From a virus: a DNA stretch of 64,000 bases. The stretch is taken from positions 1 to 64,000 of the IMG/VR virus record IMGVR_UViG_3300005264_000039. One strand, given 5' to 3'. A model generated the notes under the pieces. The model had not been told where the DNA came from and did no database searches. It saw only the letters and a list, made by a program, of their open reading frames with translations. The first letter of the stretch is position 1. Each line of letters begins with the position of its first letter. Shown one piece after another: positions 4,676 through 48,387 of the stretch. The translations under genes were made by a program, and so were the position numbers.

Positions 4676-4888
4676 TTAGTTTATTTTAATATTAAACCAT
4701 TTTTCAACTTCGCTGTGTGAACCGAATTCAACTTTACCTAACATTTGCTCATATGCATCTTCATATACAATCATGTATTTATCTTTGAATCCTGTCTTTG
4801 TGATATGTAATAATTCAGGAGAATCATCAAATTTAAATGTTTGACATGTTGTTTCTATTTCAGTTAAATTTATTTTTGTTTTACTCAT
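4676..4888 (-). CDS. Small acidic protein co-translated with UvsX
   Basis: 70 residues, no recognised domain. Its start codon overlaps the last codons of uvsX (8-bp overlap), which implies translational coupling and a possible accessory role in recombination or replication. The last third (VEFGSHSEVEKWFNI) looks like a small folded element. Confidence 0.6.
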   Translation of the reverse strand: MSKTKINLTEIETTCQTFKFDDSPELLHITKTGFKDKYMIVYEDAYEQMLGKVEFGSHSEVEKWFNIKIN

Positions 4889-6452
4889 TTTCTTTTTTAT
4901 TATTTTTTATTTTTTTACTTCTATCATATTCCAATATTAAGATATTAGCAATTATATCATATAATATATCTTTCAAATGTGGATGTGTTATTGTAAATAG
5001 TTCTATGAAATCTTTTTGATAAAATTTATATTCTTCAATTTCACCTGTTTTTTCATCGGTAATTTCTAATTTACTCCATGCACCAGCTACGGTTATAAAT
5101 CCATTTTCTTTTAAAACATCATACCATCCACTAAATTCATCAATTCCTTTATTAAAAAGTATATCAAAATTACAACTTCTAAGTGGCGGTGCAATTCTAT
5201 TTTTAGAAACAATTACTTTTGTATTAATTCCAATTACATTTTTATTTTTATCTTTTAATTGACCATTCTGTTTTAATCTTAATCGAACTGAACTGTGGTA
5301 TGCAATTGATTTACCTCCCGATGTCGTGTATGGGTCGCCAAACATGGTATTATGTGATACTACATTATTAGACATATAAGTATTATCACCACCTAAATTA
5401 AAATCTACAATTGGTATTAATTCATCTGTTTTAACGATTGTAAAATTATACCATCTGACATTTTTATTCAGTTTATACTTATCTTCATTACCATATAATT
5501 TCTTTATTTCTATAAATGATTCTTTTTGTGTTGCATTCTCTTTACATAAAATTTTATGCTCGCCACTTGTTTCTAATGTTTCAAAATCATATTCAATAAT
5601 ATATTTAATACTATCCTTTTTTCTTATAATATGTTTTATATCATTCCATTTATCATTATATCCTGCAACTTTATATTTAAATGAAGAAACATCGATTGCT
5701 GTGTCTATTTCCATTTGATTATAATCGTGACCCATGTTTTTAAATAAGTCATTCATAGAAATAGTATATTTACCATTGTCCATTTGAACATGTATTTTTG
5801 TACTTGGGTGTACACATCCTAATTTAGTACGCAATTGATTTGTAAATATTAACAATACACGTTGTTTATTAATTAAATTAGTTATCTTCCGCATTGCCTT
5901 TGACAATATGATTGCTTTACTAGTTGCCCAACCATCTTTATTATAATCAGCACCTTGTTCAACTACAGTAGTTGCACCTGCAACACTATCAACAACAATT
6001 GTTATAAGCTTATCGATTGATTTGCCTCTCACTTCAAGAATAAGTTTTTCAATTGTTTCAAATATTTCCTCTAACGTTTCTAATTGAATATATAGTAGTT
6101 TATCAGTATCAATACCAATTGCATATAAAAATTCTTCAGTAACAGCACTTTCAGTATCAATGTATACACCGACACCATCATTAGTTTGTGTGTTTTTTAA
6201 TATAGTACTTGCCAATAAACTTTTACCACTTGCTTCCAACCCAGTTATTTCAATGATTTTACCAACTGGCAGTCCTCCATCTTTTCGATTTGAAATAATT
6301 AAATCAGTTATTGCGTTTCCTGTCGATACATACTCTTTTATATCAGATGGGTTGTCTTCAGTTCCTAGAAAATATGCAACTGTTTCATTTTTAAATAATT
6401 TATTAATTGAATCTTTCAGTGTTTCAATTTCAGTTTTTTCTTTTTTTGCCAT
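4881..6452 (-). CDS. uvsX: UvsX/RecA-type recombinase interrupted by a mini-intein
   Basis: A 523-residue precursor. Walker A GLEASGKS at 71-78, Walker B strand ending VVDS at 153-156, an L1-like region around 160-175, and the L2/C-terminal part TNQLRTKLG...TMFGDPYTTSGGK typical of RecA/UvsX ATPases. Residues 213-368 are an intein, so the spliced recombinase would be about 367 residues, close to the usual UvsX size. The protein forms presynaptic filaments on ssDNA for recombination-dependent replication and repair. The gp32-like gene is directly upstream on the same strand. A hairpin between them could attenuate read-through. The C-terminus is Lys/Glu-rich. Confidence 0.93.
   Translation of the reverse strand: MAKKEKTEIETLKDSINKLFKNETVAYFLGTEDNPSDIKEYVSTGNAITDLIISNRKDGGLPVGKIIEITGLEASGKSLLASTILKNTQTNDGVGVYIDTESAVTEEFLYAIGIDTDKLLYIQLETLEEIFETIEKLILEVRGKSIDKLITIVVDSVAGATTVVEQGADYNKDGWATSKAIILSKAMRKITNLINKQRVLLIFTNQLRTKLGCVHPSTKIHVQMDNGKYTISMNDLFKNMGHDYNQMEIDTAIDVSSFKYKVAGYNDKWNDIKHIIRKKDSIKYIIEYDFETLETSGEHKILCKENATQKESFIEIKKLYGNEDKYKLNKNVRWYNFTIVKTDELIPIVDFNLGGDNTYMSNNVVSHNTMFGDPYTTSGGKSIAYHSSVRLRLKQNGQLKDKNKNVIGINTKVIVSKNRIAPPLRSCNFDILFNKGIDEFSGWYDVLKENGFITVAGAWSKLEITDEKTGEIEEYKFYQKDFIELFTITHPHLKDILYDIIANILILEYDRSKKIKNNKKENE
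5349..5816 (-). other. Mini-intein in the UvsX L2 region
   Basis: In-frame insertion of 156 residues (213-368 of the precursor). The N-terminal block CVHPSTKI begins with Cys213; a TSGEH block (295-299) matches the TxxH block B; the C-terminal block ends VVSHN with His367-Asn368, followed by extein Thr369 as +1 nucleophile. The exteins join as RTKLG-TMFGDP, a conserved RecA segment that reads naturally. At 156 residues there is no room for a homing endonuclease, so this is a splicing-only mini-intein. Confidence 0.88.
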
Positions 6453-6514: not shown

Positions 6515-7327
6515 TTAATCTTTTAATAAATTTTTAAATTTATCTAAGTAATTTTCTTTTCCAGTATCAGCAGTTGGTTCGTCTTTTTTAGATATAACTT
6601 GTTTTGACTCTTTAACCGTTTGTTCGTTAGTTGGTGTGCCTTCTTTTTTATAATCAATATATTTTTCTAGTGCTTCTCTATATTTTTCTTCTGGTTGTTC
6701 TTTGAATAATGCTGTCGATTGTATGTCTACTACACTATCTACAATAGCTTTACATTCAGCATCACTATCGGCTAGCATTGATGGTTTTCTTGCAAATCGA
6801 ATTTTTGTATTACCATATTGATTTCCTGCTTCTTTTGGTGTTTGTTTGGTAATAATTATATCAGTACCAGTCTTTTCATCTGCAATGTCACCATATTCAG
6901 GGTCAGATGCATATACTAATATTTCTTTTAAAATTCTTTCACTGAAATTCCAGTATTTAACTTTCGGAGTTTTACCTTCAACTTCTTCACTTCTTACAAT
7001 TACAGGTACTAATATACGTTTAGTTGGTGATAGTCTTTTTGCAAGTTCAATATCATCAGAATCTTTTGAAGAATATAGTTCTTTTACAAATTTTAAAATT
7101 ATGTCTTCTTTTTGAAATGTTTTTGCACTTATTAAACTTGGTTTTGTGAAGTAATAAATATATTGGCCAATGAACGGCCAACCAGATTTACCATATTTAT
7201 TTGGTACTATTCTTACTCGTGTGTCACCTGCTTCAAGTTTTAAAAATAAATCACCGAAATCGTTACTTCCTTGTTTTGAATTAAGTTTTTCTAACTCTTG
7301 TTTTACTACATCTAAATCTAATGCCAT
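6515..7327 (-). CDS. gp32-like single-stranded DNA-binding protein
   Basis: 270 residues. The N-terminal LDLDVVKQELEKLNSKQ is followed by an OB-like core (GDTRVRIVPNKYGKSGWPF, VPVIVRSEE, KYWNFSERILKEILVYA) in the order found in gp32-type proteins of distant T4 relatives. The C-terminal 40 residues are low-complexity Lys/Glu-rich and end EKYIDYK...LDKFKNLLKD, consistent with a partner-binding tail. No zinc-binding Cys/His cluster of the T4 gp32 kind is visible. Position directly upstream of uvsX, on the same strand, supports the assignment. It coats ssDNA during replication and recombination. Confidence 0.75.
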   Translation of the reverse strand: MALDLDVVKQELEKLNSKQGSNDFGDLFLKLEAGDTRVRIVPNKYGKSGWPFIGQYIYYFTKPSLISAKTFQKEDIILKFVKELYSSKDSDDIELAKRLSPTKRILVPVIVRSEEVEGKTPKVKYWNFSERILKEILVYASDPEYGDIADEKTGTDIIITKQTPKEAGNQYGNTKIRFARKPSMLADSDAECKAIVDSVVDIQSTALFKEQPEEKYREALEKYIDYKKEGTPTNEQTVKESKQVISKKDEPTADTGKENYLDKFKNLLKD

Positions 7328-7686: not shown

Positions 7687-8907
7687 TTAAGTATAATTAC
7701 CATCATAAATTTTAATATCATAAAATAAATTCAATTCTTTTAACATATCGAAAATATTTTTTATTTGTGTATCATTATGATGTTCTTCGTCAATATCAAA
7801 TAAAAATGAATCATAATTATACATAACTAATTTAATATTCACGTTATCAATTATTTTTAAAATTTTATGTATTATCATCATCGACATCTCCATTTCAAGT
7901 AATTGAATATAATAATTAAATATTTTTATTTTTGTTACATATTGTGAATTTGTTATATAATTTTTTATTTTATTAAATGGACTTTCGATATAACCATGTA
8001 AATTATATTGTTCCCATAATTTTTCAATTAATATATCAGCTTTTTGAAATATTTCTATGTTATTTCTCTCATTATTTTGTTTATCATCATATAAAAATCT
8101 AAAATTTTTTATTTTTGATTGTCTATATTGTTCATTAGTTAACTGAGTAGTATTGAAATAATATCTTTCTCCTAAATAAGTATGCCAATTATTATATTCA
8201 GTCGGAATGTCTATATTGAAAATTTTGGATAGTAATAGTAAATGATAAGAATTAAAATCAATTTCTAAGAAAAACCCTTTTTCGAATTGTGTGGTTATCA
8301 TTGACCTTTCGTTATTCTTTTTATTCAAACTCATAAAATTTAAATTATAAATATTATTAGTTGGTCGTAGTGTTTTTGAAAATAATGTGTAATTGCTATA
8401 TATTTTATCAATTTTATTACTAGTTACAAATTTATATGTTTTAGCTTTATATAATTTTAATATATCAATATCAATATTTATATTATTTTTTTCAATTTGT
8501 ATCATGTTTGATATTATTGTATTATTGACAAAGGTGTTATATGATAAATTTATATCAATGCGTTTATAATCGAATAATTCTATTATTTTATGATTTGGAA
8601 TTAAGTATAACTTACTATTATAAAAACTATTGAAAGAATCATATGTTTGAGTTGTATAATAGTCTATTTTTTTTGTTTTTATAAAATTTTGGATGGTTAC
8701 ATCATATATATTATCTTTATTTTCTATAGATAATGATTGTAGTAATTCTTTTTTATTATTAGTATATATTTTATATGTGTTATATTTTGATATTTTCAGT
8801 TTATGTGTCACAATTACATTGCCATCATCTTCAATTATCAAATACCGATTGTTTGTACAATTATAAATATGTCTATTGCTAAATTCTTTTATTAAAAATA
8901 TAAACAT
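7687..8907 (-). CDS. Reduced family A DNA polymerase-like protein
   Basis: 406 residues; the C-terminal half follows the family A polymerase motif order. A segment at ~181-201 (LRPTNN...NLNFMSL...ER) parallels the GRLSS...PNLQNIP...R stretch. Motif A is LEIDFNSYHLLLL with Asp217. Motif B is YRQSKIKNFRFLYDD with Arg262, Lys265, Phe269 and Tyr273 in the RxxxKxxxFxxxY-type spacing. Motif C is MYNYDSFLFDI with Asp366 in place of the usual VHDE. A Q/E-rich helix (QLLEMEMSMM) precedes motif C as in Pol I. The first ~175 residues show no 3'-5' exonuclease motifs. Because a full family B replicase is also present at 22331-25072, this is probably an accessory or remodelled polymerase. Tyr replaces the His before the motif C Asp and Ser replaces the Glu after it, so activity is uncertain. 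Confidence 0.6.
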   Translation of the reverse strand: MFIFLIKEFSNRHIYNCTNNRYLIIEDDGNVIVTHKLKISKYNTYKIYTNNKKELLQSLSIENKDNIYDVTIQNFIKTKKIDYYTTQTYDSFNSFYNSKLYLIPNHKIIELFDYKRIDINLSYNTFVNNTIISNMIQIEKNNINIDIDILKLYKAKTYKFVTSNKIDKIYSNYTLFSKTLRPTNNIYNLNFMSLNKKNNERSMITTQFEKGFFLEIDFNSYHLLLLSKIFNIDIPTEYNNWHTYLGERYYFNTTQLTNEQYRQSKIKNFRFLYDDKQNNERNNIEIFQKADILIEKLWEQYNLHGYIESPFNKIKNYITNSQYVTKIKIFNYYIQLLEMEMSMMIIHKILKIIDNVNIKLVMYNYDSFLFDIDEEHHNDTQIKNIFDMLKELNLFYDIKIYDGNYT

Positions 8908-8929: not shown

Positions 8930-9502
8930 TTAATTATTCAATGAATATTCTATATATCTACCTGATAGTAATTTTTGTAATCCTTTCATTTTTTTTTCAT
9001 AATGTTGTATTGTTCTTTTATTTGTATCATAGATACCATTTTCTGTGATAATATCATTCTTTTTGACATCATATATTTTTCCTGTAATTTTCCATTCTAA
9101 CGTTATACCATAATATAAATTACCATTAATTCCTTTTCTTTTATCTGTTAGTGTGTCATATTGTTTATTATCAATTTCTATAACAACTGAATTATAATCA
9201 TTACGTTTTTTTATAAAAAATCGTTTTATAAATCCATTCGTATAATCTCTTTCAGTTGGATTTATTTTTAATATTGCGATTGGTTCTTCAAATCTAGTAT
9301 AAATATATTGTCCTTTCAATTTTAAAAATTTTAAAAAAATATTATTGGTATTTAATTTCAACAGACGTTTATCGTCTGTTGAAAATAGAAAATTGTTTTT
9401 TTCATAATAATATCCAATATATTCAGTACCTGATAGTAACATATATTCTTTTCCTTTAGTATATAACATTTTTTTATCAGATGTAATTGGTGTGTATTTC
9501 AT
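8930..9502 (-). CDS. Conserved T4-like virion-type hypothetical protein
   Basis: 190 residues. The sequence contains PTERDYTNGFIKRFFIKKRND, a motif I associate with an uncharacterised conserved protein of marine T4-like phages, and a Gly/Tyr-rich N-terminus (GKEYMLLSGTEYIGYYY). It lies between the baseplate hub gene and the polymerase-like gene on the same strand. Structural role inferred from neighbourhood only. Confidence 0.55.
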   Translation of the reverse strand: MKYTPITSDKKMLYTKGKEYMLLSGTEYIGYYYEKNNFLFSTDDKRLLKLNTNNIFLKFLKLKGQYIYTRFEEPIAILKINPTERDYTNGFIKRFFIKKRNDYNSVVIEIDNKQYDTLTDKRKGINGNLYYGITLEWKITGKIYDVKKNDIITENGIYDTNKRTIQHYEKKMKGLQKLLSGRYIEYSLNN

Positions 9503-9642: not shown

Positions 9643-12555
9643 TTACTTCACCAATAATTTTTCAATTTTCATCATAGAATCAATATGTGTTTGTGCAATT
9701 ATTTTCTGTCCTCTATCAGATAACATAAAGGCACGTTCAACTGGGGTTGTATAAAACCCATTTTCAGTTAATATTGCTGGGCATTTTGTATAATTTACTA
9801 TTCCTACATTATGACGTTTGTCAATACGATATTTGGATGATATGCGTTTATTATTAATTGTATTAATCCACATAGTATCCAACTCATCATAAAATATTTT
9901 AGCATATTCATATGATTTATCAGTAAAATTATTTTTATATGTTTTACCTTTTCGCTGATATGTAGGTGTTGAAATTATAGTCATTACACCACCTGCTGTA
10001 CCTCTTTGACCAACATATTTAATTCTTTGTGCATTTCCATGTATTGATACTACTATTACTTGTTTATTAGGATTATTTTTTATGAATTTGTTTATAATTT
10101 GTGAACGTGTCCAAATAGAAACATCATTATTAGTAGTTATAGTTGGAATAGTTGTTAATCCACGTAAATTACCTAATTTAATAATTTGTTTCATAACATC
10201 TCGATTGAATTTATATTCTAATAATTGTGGAACACCACTATTATCAGATACATCATTTGGTGGGTATCTTTTATATGATGGATTCGTATTAATACCATGT
10301 CCTGGGTCAATAAACCAAACAACATTTGATGGTTTATTTTCATTTAAAATATCTTGTTGTTGATTATTTATAATTTCTTCTGCATTATTATCTAAATCAT
10401 CGGATATAACTGTATAATTATTTTTTGCAAATGATGGACTATCATAATTAACATTGTTAATGTCATCTTCATTATTAACACGCATAATTGTTTCAATTGA
10501 TGTGTCCCATCCAGACGGAGTTATTGTATGTGAGACATTTGTTATTTGGAATATTGCTTTGTTTTTATACCTATCAGGTAAATAATCAATACCAATTATA
10601 TTGCCAAATTGAATACCTCCTATTCCATCTAATGTAGTAGACATTTTCAATGGTAAAAACATCATTTTTTTATTATTTTTCACATTTGTATCAGTTTTAA
10701 CATCACGACCAAAATTATCAGCAATACATTTTGCCATAATTGTTTTTAATGTAACGACATTTTCATCAGTGCGACCATTCCAACCCCATCCATATACACG
10801 TTTTTTTGCTTCTAATAGTTTAGTATTGTATTCTGATTCGCTCCATTCTGTGACATTTTCATTTGAATCGCCATCACTTAAATCCGTTTCGGAATTAACA
10901 CGTGGTAATCCTAAATCGACTGTTGCTAAGTTAGTTAAGTTTGCACCATAAAAATTATATTGTGATGTAGTACTATCCGAATTACTTACATTCGTATTAT
11001 TTGCATTAGTTCCATACATTATTTGTGCTTTTATTTCTTCATCTACATTAGTTGAAATATCTACATTTTTAACTATACTATTTTTATTGTATACTTTTAA
11101 AATATATGGATTTAATTTATCACGTTCGACAAAGTTGTAATCGACAATTTGAATAACATCTGGTTCATTTTCATTGACAAAAGAACCTAAGTTCCAAGTA
11201 TTTACATTAGCATCATTTATGGAATTTAAAATACTAGTTAACAACTCATTTAATGTTTTTGTTGAATTGACCGCATTTAATATAAGTCGTAAGTTTAATA
11301 ATATACCTTGTAGTTTGAAATATTGCCCATCGACAATATCAATGACTAATTCGTTTGGTATAGATGAAATTGATTTTGAAAGAAACTTGTTATCTTTAAA
11401 AGAAGTTTGTCCAAATGGTAATATGCAGATAAGTGGGTCTGCAGAAAAATGTATTCCATTGAATGATAATTTTGTGTTATTGCTATTTAATTTAGGTAAT
11501 AAATCCTGTTGAGACATTTCAATCGAACCACCTGTATCATTTTTTAGTTGGTTATTTAATATATGTGCTTGAAAGTTTTTATTTGTTAATATAACATCAT
11601 CACCACATTCAGTATTATTTTTAATCCGAAGTGATAAATTATTATTTATAATATATTTTTCAAAATATTCCCATGTCACATAGTATTGGTGGTCTTCCTT
11701 TTTATCAATATCATTAAAATCGCCTTCTTCATACTTAGCAGATTCAATGTCAATTCTAATACCCATCATTTTATTTGCAATAATAAGTTCCTTATCATCA
11801 TTACCATTAATTCTATCAACTGTAGCACGAATTGTAGATTTTATATTCTCATCAACTACGTGTTCATTATCTACATTTGGTTTTGTTAATTTTTTAGATG
11901 TTGAATGGATATTCATATCTAAAAACATACCACCTACACTTTGTATAGTAGTTGTACAATCAAAACCACCATCAGGTCTAATAGACCAGCTAAATGTAGA
12001 AATCGGACCTTGCATCCCATCATAATGTCCATTGTATTTATCAACTAATTCATATATTTTTTTAGTCATGCATCTGTCTGAAATTGGTGGTATTTTGTGT
12101 AAATCACTGTAAACATTTGTATTATTATCATCAGCCATAATATTCCAACCCCATTCTAATAATAAACTCATGCCAGGTGTCATATACAATTTTTCAAATG
12201 TATTTAATTGTTGAATACTCCATACAGTAAAATTAATTGTAGCTTCTCTTATTGAACCCATACTCCCTTTATTTGTTACTGATACATTTGTAATGCCTGG
12301 TAATGGTCTATCATATTCATCGTATAATTCTTTATATCCACTTGGTGTTTTTTTTGTTGATAATGATGTCGTGCCATTGTATAAAATATTGTCATTTCTT
12401 ATATTGTTATCACCATCTATTGAAACCATCGATGTTAATCTTGTCCATGTAGTTTTATTATTTAACCAGTTTTTACGTAAATTAATATTATTTTGTTGTC
12501 TATAATCTAATGTTTTGCGAATGTTATTTCGTATGTCGCTTAAAAATAGTCCCAT
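9643..12555 (-). CDS. Baseplate hub-like protein with C-terminal Amidase_3 domain
   Basis: 970 residues, two parts. The N-terminal ~730 residues resemble tail hub/baseplate proteins of T4-like phages: INFTVWSIQQLNTFEKLYMTPGMSLLLEWGW near residues 105-145 and a beta-rich middle. Residues ~745-970 are an N-acetylmuramoyl-L-alanine amidase: FIDPGHG with His753, zinc ligand Glu780, SIHGNA with His839, and TENGF with catalytic Glu931. It would sit at the tail tip and cut peptidoglycan during injection, the role that gp5 lysozyme plays in T4. A TATTTATA box precedes its start, as for other structural genes. Confidence 0.8.
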   Translation of the reverse strand: MGLFLSDIRNNIRKTLDYRQQNNINLRKNWLNNKTTWTRLTSMVSIDGDNNIRNDNILYNGTTSLSTKKTPSGYKELYDEYDRPLPGITNVSVTNKGSMGSIREATINFTVWSIQQLNTFEKLYMTPGMSLLLEWGWNIMADDNNTNVYSDLHKIPPISDRCMTKKIYELVDKYNGHYDGMQGPISTFSWSIRPDGGFDCTTTIQSVGGMFLDMNIHSTSKKLTKPNVDNEHVVDENIKSTIRATVDRINGNDDKELIIANKMMGIRIDIESAKYEEGDFNDIDKKEDHQYYVTWEYFEKYIINNNLSLRIKNNTECGDDVILTNKNFQAHILNNQLKNDTGGSIEMSQQDLLPKLNSNNTKLSFNGIHFSADPLICILPFGQTSFKDNKFLSKSISSIPNELVIDIVDGQYFKLQGILLNLRLILNAVNSTKTLNELLTSILNSINDANVNTWNLGSFVNENEPDVIQIVDYNFVERDKLNPYILKVYNKNSIVKNVDISTNVDEEIKAQIMYGTNANNTNVSNSDSTTSQYNFYGANLTNLATVDLGLPRVNSETDLSDGDSNENVTEWSESEYNTKLLEAKKRVYGWGWNGRTDENVVTLKTIMAKCIADNFGRDVKTDTNVKNNKKMMFLPLKMSTTLDGIGGIQFGNIIGIDYLPDRYKNKAIFQITNVSHTITPSGWDTSIETIMRVNNEDDINNVNYDSPSFAKNNYTVISDDLDNNAEEIINNQQQDILNENKPSNVVWFIDPGHGINTNPSYKRYPPNDVSDNSGVPQLLEYKFNRDVMKQIIKLGNLRGLTTIPTITTNNDVSIWTRSQIINKFIKNNPNKQVIVVSIHGNAQRIKYVGQRGTAGGVMTIISTPTYQRKGKTYKNNFTDKSYEYAKIFYDELDTMWINTINNKRISSKYRIDKRHNVGIVNYTKCPAILTENGFYTTPVERAFMLSDRGQKIIAQTHIDSMMKIEKLLVK

Positions 12556-12695: not shown

Positions 12696-13490
12696 ATGGC
12701 ATTCACAACATCGGATAGTTATGTAAAATACGTAGCTAGTATAAGGAATCTAAAACCATTGTCAAAGAAGGAAGAATCTTCTTTGACAATGCGTGCACAT
12801 GGTGGTGACATAGGTGCTCGTAATGAATTGGTTAAGCACAATTTATTGTGGGCACTAAAATCAGCAAGAAAATTTCAGCATACTGCTGAATTAGAAGATT
12901 TGATTCAGGAGGCAAATTTAGGATTATTGCTTAGTGTTGATAAATACTCCGATATTGGCAATAAGTTCTATACATTTGCCAAAAGTCACATTAATAAGGA
13001 GATTTTTGATTTTCTTGCAACCAAAAATTCTACTATTCGTATTCCGTGGAATCGTAGAAGAAATTTGGATAAAATACGGAAGTTCAAAGAAGATTTCGTA
13101 AAAAAACATAATCGCACACCAAGTATGTTTGAAATTCGTGATGTGTGTGGAGGAAGTGAACTTGATGAAACGATATCGGTTTCTCTGGACAGTCCTGTTA
13201 CTGAAGATGGACTAACCATAATAGATACAATCGGTGTGAATGATGATGAAATAACCACATCTAAAAAAACAATCATGTCTGAATTGGAACGATTGTTAGA
13301 TAAAAATGAAATTGTAATAATTTCATTGATGTTTGGGTTTGTAGATAATATCGAACGAGATATACCAACAATTTCAAATGTATTAGAACATGAATATAAT
13401 ATCTCATATTCTAATAAACAAATAAGTAGAATAATTGACGGTGCTTTGATAAAATTGAGGAAATCAACAATATTTAAAGAAATGTTATGA
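12696..13490 (+). CDS. Sigma-70 family RNA polymerase sigma factor (late-type)
   Basis: 264 residues. Region 2 is clear: [18 protein letters not shown], then [20 protein letters not shown] and the helix [17 protein letters not shown]. Region 3 follows ([21 protein letters not shown] and [11 protein letters not shown]), and region 4 is a degenerate helix-turn-helix in the last 60 residues ([27 protein letters not shown]). It would direct host core polymerase to phage promoters, plausibly the TATTTATA boxes seen throughout the window, as gp55 does in T4. Its stop overlaps the DnaJ start. Driven by a host-type promoter, consistent with expression before the late genes. Confidence 0.88.
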
Positions 13491-14461
13491 TGAATAAGAA
13501 AGATTATTATAAAATATTGGAAGTTTCACAGGAAGCATCTGGTGATGATATAAAAAAATCATATCGGAAATTAGCAAAGAAATACCATCCTGATACGAAT
13601 CCCGGCAATGTAGAAGCAGAAGAAAGATTTAAAGAAATTGCAGAAGCATATGAAATTTTAGGAAATGTGGAAAAACGTTCACAATATGATATGGGTAGAC
13701 AATATTCACTGAAGGATATTTTAAACACGTATGAACAAGCGATATTCAGAACCAATGTCAATTATGGTATGGATATACGAGTTGAAGTTGTTGTTGAACC
13801 AACTCAATTATTAAAAGATAACACGATAATAATTGAATACCCACGTGTAATAAAATGTACTTCCTGTAATGGTGTTGGAGGTCACACTACAAAATCATGT
13901 GAAGTCTGTAATGGAAATGGTTATATTGATAATAATGGCATTAAAATAGAATGTCCGATATGTGGAGGTACAGGAAGCATACCAGATGATGTATGTGAAT
14001 CATGTAATGGGAATAAGTTTATTAAAACGAACAAAAAGTTAAAAATAACATTGAATAAAGGAATATCATCAAAACAATTCAAACGAATTCATAATATGGG
14101 TAACGAAGGATTGAAGAAAAATGGTGATTTATATATCATCCAACGTATTAAAAATACGGATGAATTTAGAATATTACCAAATGGGGATTTATTGGCGAAT
14201 GTACATATTGATGTATTTGATTTAATGTTGAATGATGAACATGAAATAATATTATCAGATGATATTAAAGTCAAATATAATACAAAAGACCGTGTTAACA
14301 TGAAAATTGTATTAGATGGTGAAGGTATATTTGTAGAAGCAGTTGGTAAAACAACTAATTTAATAATAAACTTCATACCAAAAATACCAAAACAATCCGA
14401 ATTTAATAATAATAATTTGAAAAAAATTAAAATGTTAATTAAAAGGATAAAAACAAAATAA
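13487..14461 (+). CDS. dnaJ: Phage DnaJ (Hsp40) co-chaperone
   Basis: 324 residues with the full type I layout. J domain at 5-70 with HPD at 34-36; zinc-finger domain with four CxxC pairs (Cys124/127, 138/141, 156/159, 170/173), mostly CxxCNGxG; then a substrate-binding C-terminal region. The Gly/Phe linker is very short. It would stimulate host DnaK ATPase and help fold phage proteins or remodel complexes. ATG overlaps the sigma stop as ATGA, so translation is coupled. Two ATGs in tandem open the frame. A terminator follows 13 bp after the stop. Confidence 0.92.
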
Positions 14462-22330: not shown

Positions 22331-25072
22331 ATGTATAAAACAATATATTACAATAAGACTAAAAATGTTATTCATTTATGGGATGATGTAACAGGATATA
22401 AAAAATTTAAATATGAAGATTATGCGTATACATTAACAAATGAAAAAACGCAATATAAATCTCTATTCGGTGAAAATGTTAAAAAAGTAACAGATATAAC
22501 TAAATATAATAATGATGAATTATTAGAGAGTGATATAAGACCCGAATTTAAAGTATTATCGGATTTGTATTTGGATAGTGATGAAGTATCTACTGATAAT
22601 AATATTTTATTTTTTGATATTGAGGTTGAAGTTACAGATGGATTTCCAAATTCACATTTGGTTAATAACAAAGTCACTGCAATATCATTATATTTTTCAA
22701 AAACTAAAAAATATAGTGTTCTATTATTAAATGATGAATCATCGATAGATGATAATGATTTAACTGAAATCCCATCTGATTATAATATTAAATTATTTGA
22801 TAGTGAGAAAGATTTATTATTATATTTCATAAAACTATTACAAAATAATAAACCTAATATTGTAACTGGTTGGAATATTGAGACGTTTGATATTCCATAT
22901 ATTTATAATAGAATTAAAAAACAGTTAGGTTATAAATATGCAAATCGTCTATCACCTATTAATATAGTAAAATATCAACATGACAATGCAAATGCAATCA
23001 GAACTACAATAGCAGGTATTGATATTTTAGATTATATATCACTCTACAAACAATTTACGCAAAATGAACAATCTAGTTATTCACTAGAAAACATATCTCA
23101 AAAAGAATTAAAGCGTGGTAAAACTAAATTCGATGGTTCATTAAATAATTTATTACGAACAAATCCTTTGAAATTCATTGAGTATAGTATAACTGATACT
23201 GAATTGGTTGTTGCACTTGATACTAAATTGAATTTTATTGAGTTGGCTCGGTCGATTTGTCATAGAGGACATGTTACATATGAAAATATAAAATATAGTT
23301 CAATATGGTTAGAAGGTGCTTCTCTTGTATATTTACATCGTAAAAACATCATAGCACCAAATAAAAAAAGTAAACAAATATTTGAATTGGTGCAAGACCA
23401 TTTAAGTGATGATAATATTATTAAATTTAAGCATAATATTGATATAACAACTGTTCCTTTCAATGGAGTATTACGGTTTAAAAAATCAGAAACAAATTAT
23501 TTCGATGTACCATATACTGAAATTAAAGATAATACTATAACATTAAAAACTAAATTACATAAATTCATAAAAAAATCATATACTGTGTTAGTTGCATTAT
23601 TGGGTGCATATGTGAAAGAACCAATAGCAGGATTATTTAAATGGATATATGATTTAGATTTAGTATCATTATACCCATCTATTATTAGGTCATTAAATAT
23701 AAGTTATGAAACTAAAATAGGGAGAATATTACAATGGGATAAAGATTATTTGAAGAATAAAACAAAGAAGAATTATATTATAGTATACCGAGATGGAACA
23801 AAACAAAATATAACTCACGAAAAGCTATTTAAAATACTTAGTACTAATAATATAGCAGTAGCAACAAATGGTGTAATGTACGATACATCTACAATTGGAT
23901 TTATTCCATCTATTTTAACCGATTGGTTTGGTGAGCGTGTTAAAATGAAAGATTTGATGAAGTATCATAAAAAAAAGAAAGATGTATATTTGTCAGATTA
24001 TTATAATACACGACAATGGACAATGAAGATTATGTTAAATTCATTTTATGGAGTAATGGCACTACCAAGTTTCAGATTTTATGACATGGACAATGCAGAG
24101 GCAACAACATCAACTGGTCAAAGTATTATAAAATATACAGCAAGAAAAGCAAATGAATTTTATAATAATCAAACTAACAGTACGCAACTACCTGATAATG
24201 TGATATATACAGATACGGATAGTATTTTTTTATCATCTTTACCACTTATACCTGATAAAAAACTATCAGATGACGAAATGATTGAAAAAACAATTGATGT
24301 GGCATTACAAACTCAGACATATATAAATGATGCGTATGATGTATATGTGAAAGAATATCATAATCTTAAAGGAACTCATTTCCTAAAAATTAAACAGGAA
24401 TTAGTTGCTAAAAGTGGATTGTGGATTGCAAAGAAGCGATATGCATTAGATGTTATAAATGAGGAAGGAATTACAGTTGATAGTAATTTACAGGTAACTG
24501 GTTTAGATGTAATTAGAAGTGATTTTCCACCTGCATTTAAAGGTGTATTAACTGAGATATTATTATCAGTTATGAATGATAAATCCGAAAAAGAAACTAC
24601 TCAAATAATAAAAGATTTCAAGCATTCATTTAAAAAGTTAAAAGAAACAGATATATTATCAATTATGATGAGTACAGGTATAAGAGGATTAACTAAATAT
24701 GATTATGATGACAGACAAAAATTTACATTTGGTAAGGGTACTCCTATTCATGTTAAAGCAGGTTTATTCCACAATGACTTCTTACAAAAGAATAAACAAT
24801 TTAATTACGATATGATAAGAAACGATGATAAAATCAAATGGACAAAATTATTGCCGAATGAATATAATATTAACGTAATTGCATTAAAAGAACAAGATAA
24901 CGGATATTATGAAGGATTGATGGATTTTGTTAAAAATAATATTGATATCGAAGAAAATTTCAATGGGAAATTATTGAAAAAGTTAGAACAGATTTATAAG
25001 GCTATGAGATGGGATGTGAATGCAATAACACAAAATTATAATGAATCTATTGATAAATTATTTAATTTTTAA
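22331..25072 (+). CDS. Family B replicative DNA polymerase (gp43-like)
   Basis: 913 residues. 3'-5' exonuclease motifs: FFDIEVE with Asp96/Glu98, WNIETFD (182-187) and YSITD (285-289). Polymerase motifs: DLVSLYPS with Asp443, KIMLNSFYG (566-574), and YTDTDS with Asp628/Asp630. All catalytic residues are intact. It replicates the phage genome together with the clamp and ssDNA-binding protein. Start ATG follows a purine-rich AAAGGATAAG site. Downstream lie an interrupted small gene and the right copy of the inverted repeat. Confidence 0.95.
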   Translation: MYKTIYYNKTKNVIHLWDDVTGYKKFKYEDYAYTLTNEKTQYKSLFGENVKKVTDITKYNNDELLESDIRPEFKVLSDLYLDSDEVSTDNNILFFDIEVEVTDGFPNSHLVNNKVTAISLYFSKTKKYSVLLLNDESSIDDNDLTEIPSDYNIKLFDSEKDLLLYFIKLLQNNKPNIVTGWNIETFDIPYIYNRIKKQLGYKYANRLSPINIVKYQHDNANAIRTTIAGIDILDYISLYKQFTQNEQSSYSLENISQKELKRGKTKFDGSLNNLLRTNPLKFIEYSITDTELVVALDTKLNFIELARSICHRGHVTYENIKYSSIWLEGASLVYLHRKNIIAPNKKSKQIFELVQDHLSDDNIIKFKHNIDITTVPFNGVLRFKKSETNYFDVPYTEIKDNTITLKTKLHKFIKKSYTVLVALLGAYVKEPIAGLFKWIYDLDLVSLYPSIIRSLNISYETKIGRILQWDKDYLKNKTKKNYIIVYRDGTKQNITHEKLFKILSTNNIAVATNGVMYDTSTIGFIPSILTDWFGERVKMKDLMKYHKKKKDVYLSDYYNTRQWTMKIMLNSFYGVMALPSFRFYDMDNAEATTSTGQSIIKYTARKANEFYNNQTNSTQLPDNVIYTDTDSIFLSSLPLIPDKKLSDDEMIEKTIDVALQTQTYINDAYDVYVKEYHNLKGTHFLKIKQELVAKSGLWIAKKRYALDVINEEGITVDSNLQVTGLDVIRSDFPPAFKGVLTEILLSVMNDKSEKETTQIIKDFKHSFKKLKETDILSIMMSTGIRGLTKYDYDDRQKFTFGKGTPIHVKAGLFHNDFLQKNKQFNYDMIRNDDKIKWTKLLPNEYNINVIALKEQDNGYYEGLMDFVKNNIDIEENFNGKLLKKLEQIYKAMRWDVNAITQNYNESIDKLFNF

Positions 25073-47099: not shown

Positions 47100-47886
47100 T
47101 TATTATTTTTTTTATGTTATTTACCAATGTATTTGTTATATTCAGTGTACCTGTGTTTTCACTTCGTACATGGAACAGATTATCAAATGTATCTGAGTCA
47201 TTCTTCCAACCAGCCATAGCAAAATACACTAATCGATTACTAGGTAAAAACATATTAGCAATCTCTGATTTAATGCCTTTACGTTTAAGCCATAAACTTA
47301 ATTGATATAATTTTTTACTTGTAAATTTAATTAACGATTGCTGTGTGATAGATAGTTCGGTTGGAATGTAGAATGTTGGTTTGTATCGTTTATCACGAGA
47401 AGTTTCAATTTCAAATGAAAATTTACGATGTCGTACTAAATGAGAAATGAATTTATATGGAACATGTCCCCATATAATTTTAAAATTGTCAAACAAAGAC
47501 ATATCAATATTTTCGTTTTTAATGTCATTTAAAATTGATTCATTTATATTAGCTCGTAATAATGTTCGTAAATTTGTAAAATATGTTGGTTCATTGTTTT
47601 CATTCAATGTAACATACGAATATCGAGTAATTTTATTTACAAATGATGCATAGTCAGTATTAAATTTTGATTGTATTTTATTTAATAATGTTTGATTTAA
47701 TATTATTGGCACAAATTCAAATACACTTGATGCCTTTCCTCCGCTTTCTGTTAATAACCGATTCCACAATAATTGTTTCTGTGCATCTGTTCGTGTTTGT
47801 GATATTCTACCTTTTGTTATACCTGCAGAGAAATCTACAATGTCACTATTTGATAATTCTATGTGGTGTTGTTTTCGTATAAACAT
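47092..47886 (-). CDS. ThyX-like flavin-dependent thymidylate synthase (divergent)
   Basis: 264 residues. The signature region FISHLVRHRKFSFEIETSRD followed by KRY corresponds to the RHRxxSxNExSxRY motif (Arg152-His153-Arg154) but has extra residues and lacks the Asn. The C-terminus (ANMFLPSNRLVYFAMAGWKND and FDNLFHVRSENTGT) parallels the folate/dUMP-binding end. It would make dTMP, sensible for an AT-rich phage. Because the signature is altered, activity is uncertain. First gene of the operon. Confidence 0.62.
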   Translation of the reverse strand: MFIRKQHHIELSNSDIVDFSAGITKGRISQTRTDAQKQLLWNRLLTESGGKASSVFEFVPIILNQTLLNKIQSKFNTDYASFVNKITRYSYVTLNENNEPTYFTNLRTLLRANINESILNDIKNENIDMSLFDNFKIIWGHVPYKFISHLVRHRKFSFEIETSRDKRYKPTFYIPTELSITQQSLIKFTSKKLYQLSLWLKRKGIKSEIANMFLPSNRLVYFAMAGWKNDSDTFDNLFHVRSENTGTLNITNTLVNNIKKIINE

Positions 47887-47904
47887 GTTTATTATTTTAG
47901 TTTT

Positions 47905-47912
47905 TTATAAAT
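47905..47912 (-). promoter_or_regulatory. TATTTATA-class promoter
   Basis: Minus strand AATTGTTTTATTTATAAAAA, 19 bp before ATG 47886; it would drive the six-gene minus-strand operon. Confidence 0.5.
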
Positions 47913-47940
47913 AAAACAATTTTTTTTGTTATTATCACAA

Positions 47941-47948
47941 TATTTATA
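47941..47948 (+). promoter_or_regulatory. TATTTATA late-type promoter
   Basis: CAATATTTATATAAAAATAT, 11 bp before ATG 47959; it overlaps an upstream-extended frame and so supports the start at 47959. Confidence 0.6.
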
Positions 47949-47958
47949 TAAAAATATT

Positions 47959-48387
47959 ATGGAATTAACAAATTTATTTACAGCAATAGAATCAATATTC
48001 ACTTATTATAATGATGATGAGCAAAGTATATATCATTTTTTACGAATAAGTTCTAATCCAAATGTAATTGACTTTGATGAGCGTATTGCATTAGTATTGT
48101 ATAAAACAATAATCGATGGACATTTAACATCAAATGATATTGAAACATTGTATAATGAGAATGTATCGAATTATATACAGCAAATAAATCAATATACAGG
48201 AGAAAGTGATTACAATTATATTGATAGAATAAATAGTAGTGAAGTATTATCACGATTACGATTTTGTATTCTTGATGATGAATACTTTATATCAACATAC
48301 AATTCAAAATTGTCATTAAATAGTACAAATGATATTAAATCGTCATTGCGAATGAATAATTATAATGGTTATGGATGTCATATTTAA
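47959..48387 (+). CDS. Hypothetical protein upstream of the scaffold gene (142 aa)
   Basis: From ATG 47959: ELTNLFTAIESIFTYYNDDE and a helical, acidic body ending NGYGCHI. The 163 bp to the scaffold gene is AT-rich with one weak hairpin (ACTCTAT/ATAGAGT, ~48450). Late promoter and position before scaffold and capsid genes suggest a head-related role, unproven. Confidence 0.6.
   Translation: MELTNLFTAIESIFTYYNDDEQSIYHFLRISSNPNVIDFDERIALVLYKTIIDGHLTSNDIETLYNENVSNYIQQINQYTGESDYNYIDRINSSEVLSRLRFCILDDEYFISTYNSKLSLNSTNDIKSSLRMNNYNGYGCHI

Follow-up and report, generated by a model that had tools for sequence, protein, structure and literature searches.

A reduced family A DNA polymerase of the divPolA1 type beside recombination genes in a virus fragment

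Genes surrounding the polymerase

The DNA analyzed here, referred to as the window, comprises 64 kb of a virus fragment of 68,380 bases (IMGVR_UViG_3300005264_000039). On its minus strand, positions 7687 to 8907 hold a complete open reading frame of 406 amino acids, from ATG to TAA, which begins 22 bases past the stop codon of a gene for a 190-residue protein. In strand order, the minus-strand genes encode a baseplate hub protein, the 190-residue protein, the 406-residue protein, a small open reading frame, a gp32-like single-strand DNA-binding protein (SSB), and the recombinase UvsX. The 406-residue protein is assigned below to a type of family A DNA polymerase named divPolA1, and a family B DNA polymerase (PolB) is encoded elsewhere in the window.

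4881 to 6452, minus strand: UvsX/RecA recombinase with an apparent mini-intein
6515 to 7327, minus strand: gp32-like SSB
7687 to 8907, minus strand: divPolA1-type reduced family A DNA polymerase, 406 amino acids (from homology, alignment, AlphaFold2, and Foldseek), with an apparent degenerate exonuclease remnant (residues ~1 to 140), a truncated thumb, and a palm with shortened fingers (residues ~170 to 406)
8930 to 9502, minus strand: conserved upstream neighbor of 190 amino acids, of no known family, that co-occurs with the baseplate hub gene
9643 to 12555, minus strand: baseplate-hub-like protein with a C-terminal Amidase_3 domain, the start of the conserved gene order
22331 to 25072, plus strand: complete PolB (PHROG_262, E 1.6e-169)

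Among relatives of the polymerase, the baseplate hub gene lies upstream of divPolA1 in 61 of 66. Where at least 8 kb of downstream sequence was available (32 relatives), genes on the same strand encode an SSB in 30, RecA/UvsX in 29, a 5'-3' exonuclease of the FEN type in 28, and DnaB in 26, and a conserved protein of ~130 residues (hyp2) is found downstream in 31. A protein of this size (~40% identity) sits between divPolA1 and the SSB in 55 of 56 relatives, for example at 10931 to 11317 in relative L033. The 5'-3' exonuclease, DnaB, and hyp2 genes were not found in the 64-kb window, which belongs to a 68-kb fragment. Searches with the 190-residue neighbor and with hyp2 gave no informative match; the former is probably a structural protein.

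Other features of the region were also observed. The Amidase_3 domain fused to the tail protein at 9643 to 12555 (minus strand) is an N-acetylmuramoyl-L-alanine amidase domain (E 1e-15). The UvsX gene at 4881 to 6452 (minus strand) contains an in-frame insertion of ~150 residues, at approximately residues 215 to 370, that starts with Cys and ends with His-Asn before a Thr. This insertion resembles a mini-intein without an endonuclease, and its match to Pfam Intein_splicing is weak (E 0.31). In several relatives, UvsX is encoded in two pieces with a gap of ~0.9 to 1.1 kb (12166 to 14847 in L033, 7758 to 10208 in L037, and 5056 to 7501 in L012). A search of the L033 gap against Rfam gave no intron match, and the split could possibly reflect an intein or another insertion. 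A full DnaJ (Hsp40) homolog, with J, zinc-finger, and C-terminal domains, is encoded at 13487 to 14461 on the plus strand and adjoins a sigma factor gene at 12696 to 13490.

Family assignment and reduced architecture

As a lone query, the window protein gave no match in Pfam, NCBIfam, or the PDB and no meaningful match in PHROGs, so that relatives were needed for its assignment. A search of viral contigs with the single protein gave no useful related loci. By tblastn against phage genomes, the protein matched an uncultured 484-kb phage (E 6e-31), a protein of Flavobacterium phage immuto annotated as 'DNA polymerase family A' (E 2e-24, 32% identity over residues 126 to 380), and Microcystis phage Mel-JY01 (E 7e-14). 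Weak tblastn matches to structural proteins of cyanophages (E 0.3 to 0.6) were taken as chance. Relatives were gathered with tblastn and a four-member alignment. The alignment led to at least 513 related stretches of viral contigs in a first scan, and a second scan gave at least 584, so that the family far exceeds the 14 phages published. The first retrieval used a motif C pattern, while the profile for the second ended before motif A, which removes a possible motif bias. The window protein shares only 22 to 31% identity with its relatives.

The window protein itself does not reach the cut-off of Pfam DNA_pol_A (PF00476), with zero match, and it is placed in family A by its homology to relatives that do match Pfam and by its fold. 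DNA_pol_A was matched at E ≤ 0.1 by 54 of 73 family members (best 6e-13), with the immuto protein above the curated cut-off. Searched against the PDB, the family profile matched Klenow first (4.4e-10), followed by Bst and Taq. Judged from these sequence matches (immuto, 2e-24; family profile against Klenow, 4.4e-10), the likeness to family A polymerases is not due to chance. An AlphaFold2 model calculated with 73 sequences has a pTM of 0.86 and a pLDDT of 83, with values above 90 for the greater part of the palm and fingers, and Foldseek matched it in the PDB to the apicoplast polymerase apPol (best, 4e-13), Taq, and Klenow at E values of 4e-13 to 1e-11. The predicted structure thus has the palm-fingers fold of Pol I (Klenow TMq 0.67) rather than a non-polymerase fold. 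The original prediction, that a reduced polymerase of family A is present as a second enzyme near genes for recombination, is borne out by this homology and fold and by the nearby SSB (6515 to 7327) and UvsX (4881 to 6452) genes.

The name divPolA1 occurs, among the literature searched, only in one paper (Yutin et al, 2024, Virol J 21:200, PMC11348598) and its preprint. The text of that paper describes divPolA1 in 14 phages around immuto as a protein with conserved palm residues, a truncated thumb, and an inactivated exonuclease, which accompanies a regular polymerase (family A, B, or C) and is followed by conserved replication genes (PMC11348598). Apart from the exonuclease, of which it has an apparent remnant, the window protein shows these features: it is homologous to divPolA1 of immuto (QQO91919.1), keeps the catalytic residues of the palm, has a truncated thumb, is itself extra to a regular polymerase (PolB), and lies upstream of SSB and UvsX genes. 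It is therefore almost certainly a divergent divPolA1 member and not a new kind of protein. Unlike most divPolA1 proteins, it has a shorter N terminus and an Asp, D274, in place of Gly767, and no FEN exonuclease or DnaB gene was found in the 64-kb window. The divPolA2 protein of barbaviruses is likewise a family A polymerase with little thumb that a PolB phage carries as an extra, but differs, as described in the same text, in its N-terminal domain and its variable gene neighborhood (PMC11348598). In the sequence of divPolA2 AUR84708, the gate residue is still Glu and motif C reads FDE. The family size, the active-site signature with its control set, the co-occurrence with primase, and the selection estimates given here go beyond the published text, although the signature may show in part in the published figures.

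In common with Klenow, Taq, and the apicoplast polymerase (PF00476), the window protein has the palm-fingers fold and equivalents of D705, D882, K758, F762, Y766, and Q849. Unlike these enzymes, it has a shortened thumb and fingers, is predicted to lack active proofreading, and has no 5' nuclease domain. The thumb, most of which lies between the counterparts of G544 and R668, is by this measure 39 residues long compared with 124 in the E. coli enzyme (Klenow), with a family median of 34 and a median of 127 in control PolAs. The stretch of the fingers from Y766 to Q849 spans 61 to 62 residues in divPolA1 compared with 83 to 85 in canonical enzymes. Before the thumb, the window protein has 141 residues and the family a median of 178. 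Residues 1 to 140 lack a DxE motif. In the AlphaFold2 model, the strands and helices of this region follow a DnaQ-like order (pLDDT ~42 to 51 for residues 1 to 40), and residues 1 to ~140 may be what is left of a shrunken exonuclease domain. The claim that no exonuclease is attached therefore holds only in part. An hhalign comparison of the N-terminal domain with the Pol I exonuclease domain gave no sequence match.

Close pairs of relatives have dN/dS values of 0.03 to 0.20, and divPolA1 relatives evolve under purifying selection. Bacterial genome assemblies contain few members of the family (7 loci, every one on contigs of metagenome-assembled genomes, MAGs), which indicates a phage gene and not a host gene.

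A fixed combination of active-site residues

Equivalent residues were assigned by alignment with E. coli Pol I and T7 polymerases. Motifs A, B, and C had been proposed to occur in order, and the alignment with E. coli Pol I agrees:

8257 to 8259, minus strand: D217, the catalytic Asp of motif A, equivalent to E. coli D705 (Asp in 76 of 76 and 71 of 71 readable members of two sets)
8242 to 8244, minus strand: H222, at the steric-gate position, equivalent to E. coli E710 (His in 76 of 76 and 71 of 71)
8089 to 8127, minus strand: motif B in the O helix, with Y261 (R754), K265 (K758), F269 (F762), and Y273 (Y766)
7807 to 7815, minus strand: motif C, with Y365-D366-S367 aligned with H881-D882-E883

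Further equivalents in the window protein are Q335 for Q849 and R181 for R668. One assignment fails: Arg262, proposed as the Arg of motif B, aligns with R755. The counterpart of R754, a triphosphate contact in Pol I, is Y261, so that the dNTP-binding Arg is not conserved in the window protein, nor is it in divPolA1.

Active-site residues were counted in a first set of 76 members, including the window protein, and a second set of 72 further relatives, a few of them MAG loci (~146 relatives). The 78 canonical viral PolAs of a control set were obtained by searching with motif B and the sequence that separates it from motif A. In the first set, the positions of D705, D882, K758, F762, Y766, Q849, and R668 are invariant or nearly so, and the equivalents of D705, K758, Y766, Q849, N845, and R668 are retained in almost all of the ~146 members. 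Position 710 is His and position 881 is Tyr in all 76, while position 883 is Ser in 52 and Ala in 24, and position 754 is Tyr in 66. The second set repeats the pattern, with His at 710 in 71 of 71 readable members, Tyr at 881 in 70 of 70, Ser or Ala at 883 in 70 of 70, and Asp at 705 and 882 in all that could be read. In the 78 control PolAs, in contrast, position 710 is Glu in 76 and His in 1, position 881 is His in 72 and Tyr in 5, position 883 is Glu in 43 and Ser in 22, and position 754 is Arg in 74. The combination E710H, H881Y, and E883(S/A) is a fixed active-site signature of the divPolA1 family, present in all readable members; from the Klenow, Taq, and apicoplast enzymes the window protein differs by E710 to His, H881 to Tyr, E883 to Ser, and R754 to Tyr.

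Motif C of the window protein does read YDS, as originally noted, and departs from HDE. However, this motif is only partly unusual because Ser at the E883 position is ordinary in canonical viral PolAs (22 of 78), which also weakens YDS as evidence for either an RNA polymerase or an inactive enzyme. The diagnostic features are the steric-gate swap and the fixed combination, rather than YDS alone. His at position 710 is common to divPolA1 but not strictly defining, since one control PolA shares it. The record L218 (IMGVR_UViG_3300033149_001989) encodes an otherwise canonical PolA with an HDE motif C and His at the steric gate (DYSQLHLR), and offers a natural single-change comparison.

Ribonucleotides are excluded by E710, which corresponds to E658 in Bst and E480 in T7 (PMC13228545; PMC7200780), and this exclusion is lowered in Bst Pol I without the Glu (PMC7200780). 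Motif A of divPolA1 relatives reads, for example, DFKAYHP (L067) or DFQGYHP (L075). In family B polymerases, motif A is DFxSLYPS, and its Tyr is a bulky ring gate. By analogy, the His at the steric gate of divPolA1 may serve as a ring gate like the family B Tyr. The window copy has D274 where most relatives have Gly767 and L224 at the position of R712, and from these substitutions it might be less active than its relatives.

Coexisting replicases and the role of divPolA1

A complete family B replicase had been predicted in the genome, and the PHROG_262 match of the gene at 22331 to 25072 confirms it; this PolB is probably the phage replicase. PolB is present in 12 of 15 records tested, immuto having instead a separate PolA of 778 residues, while two of the 15, of 116 and 80 kb, have neither PolB nor a full PolA. 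A DnaG-type primase is encoded in 8 of the 15, including all seven of at least 157 kb. In the 484-kb phage (LR756508.1), PolB lies in pieces over several kb at 260623 to 266900, and a PolC-type match is found at 47415 to 48068. The coexisting replicases belong to unrelated families, and therefore no single replicase partner explains divPolA1. The replicase varies among relatives while divPolA1 stays, which indicates that divPolA1 is not tied to one replicase.

A catalytically altered accessory factor was one role originally suggested for the protein. In this case, a catalytically dead family A palm would have a scaffolding or regulatory function, with either the PolB replicase or UvsX and SSB as its partner. 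The protein has lost most of its thumb and the equivalent of R754, and its motif C departs from HDE, all of which could be read in this way. However, few positions of the family are as well conserved as the two metal-binding Asp residues, Q849, and the Lys, Phe, and Tyr of the O helix, and the Asp residues, Lys, and Tyr are kept in essentially all of the ~146 relatives, which would be unexpected in a dead scaffold. The coexistence with replicases of unrelated families, as the published text describes it (PMC11348598), also argues against this role, and we consider it unlikely. The other suggested role, a repair or priming enzyme, is supported in its first part, as a catalytic function in repair or recombination is favored over an inactive factor. 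Its second part is disfavored: with a DnaG-type primase in every tested record of at least 157 kb, a priming role is unnecessary.

The same primases weigh against a ribonucleotide-incorporating enzyme derived from family A, either a primase or a primer-extending RNA/DNA polymerase. The change of the steric-gate Glu to His in all members would fit such an enzyme, given the effect of removing this Glu from Bst Pol I (PMC7200780), and T7 RNA polymerase likewise lacks the Glu (G542) and has an HDS motif C. However, both the sequence and the fold searches matched DNA polymerases and not RNA polymerases, F762 and Y766 are retained, and neither the motif C Ser, found in 22 of 78 phage PolAs, nor His-710, found in one canonical PolA, marks an RNA polymerase. 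A ribonucleotide-incorporating enzyme is quite improbable on this evidence. It is more improbable still that divPolA1 is the main phage replicase with PolB as the accessory enzyme. Its place within a conserved replication gene order, where regular polymerases are described as having looser neighborhoods (PMC11348598), could suggest this arrangement, but an enzyme without a thumb or proofreading is unlikely to copy genomes of 150 to 190 kb, and every larger genome tested has another full-length DNA polymerase. The published text likewise describes regular polymerases as swapped between families with one always present (PMC11348598).

We consider divPolA1 to be, probably, an active family A polymerase of palm, short fingers, and thumb stub, with proofreading dead or lost, that is additional to the replicase. 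For the window protein itself, polymerase activity is likely on the basis of its sequence, because the catalytic set is conserved. The missing thumb and proofreading suggest short, distributive synthesis. The neighboring SSB, recombinase, 5'-3' exonuclease, and helicase genes point to gap filling, primer replacement, or recombination-linked synthesis, and the chances that gap filling or recombination is the actual role are about even. With most of its thumb gone, the enzyme would be distributive, and partners, the gp32-like protein among them, would recruit it to DNA. Together with the separate 5'-3' exonuclease, divPolA1 could perform the job that bacterial Pol I does in one chain, filling gaps, replacing primers, and making short stretches of DNA at the recombination intermediates that UvsX produces, while bulk synthesis would be left to the replicase (here PolB). 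His in place of the steric-gate Glu would alter sugar selection, perhaps as a bulky ring gate or perhaps by relaxing ribonucleotide exclusion. A bolder proposal, which we regard as speculative, is that this natural, family-wide steric-gate swap, with its invariant His and Tyr and the Ser/Ala of motif C, gives an altered specificity for the sugar or primer end (such as tolerance of ribonucleotides or of RNA/DNA junctions). A second, universally kept polymerase could then close gaps and recombination intermediates with the separate 5'-3' exonuclease.

If the proposed role is correct, Pol I would have been split into parts within a phage operon. The retention of a second polymerase across many mostly uncultivated T4-like phages, whichever replicase they carry, would point to a replication step that the replicase omits. 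The question is testable because immuto phages are cultured, and the invariant swap at a ribonucleotide-excluding residue provides a clear biochemical prediction. A polymerase of ~400 residues with hardly any thumb and, as predicted, no proofreading would also be of use as a minimal family A model.
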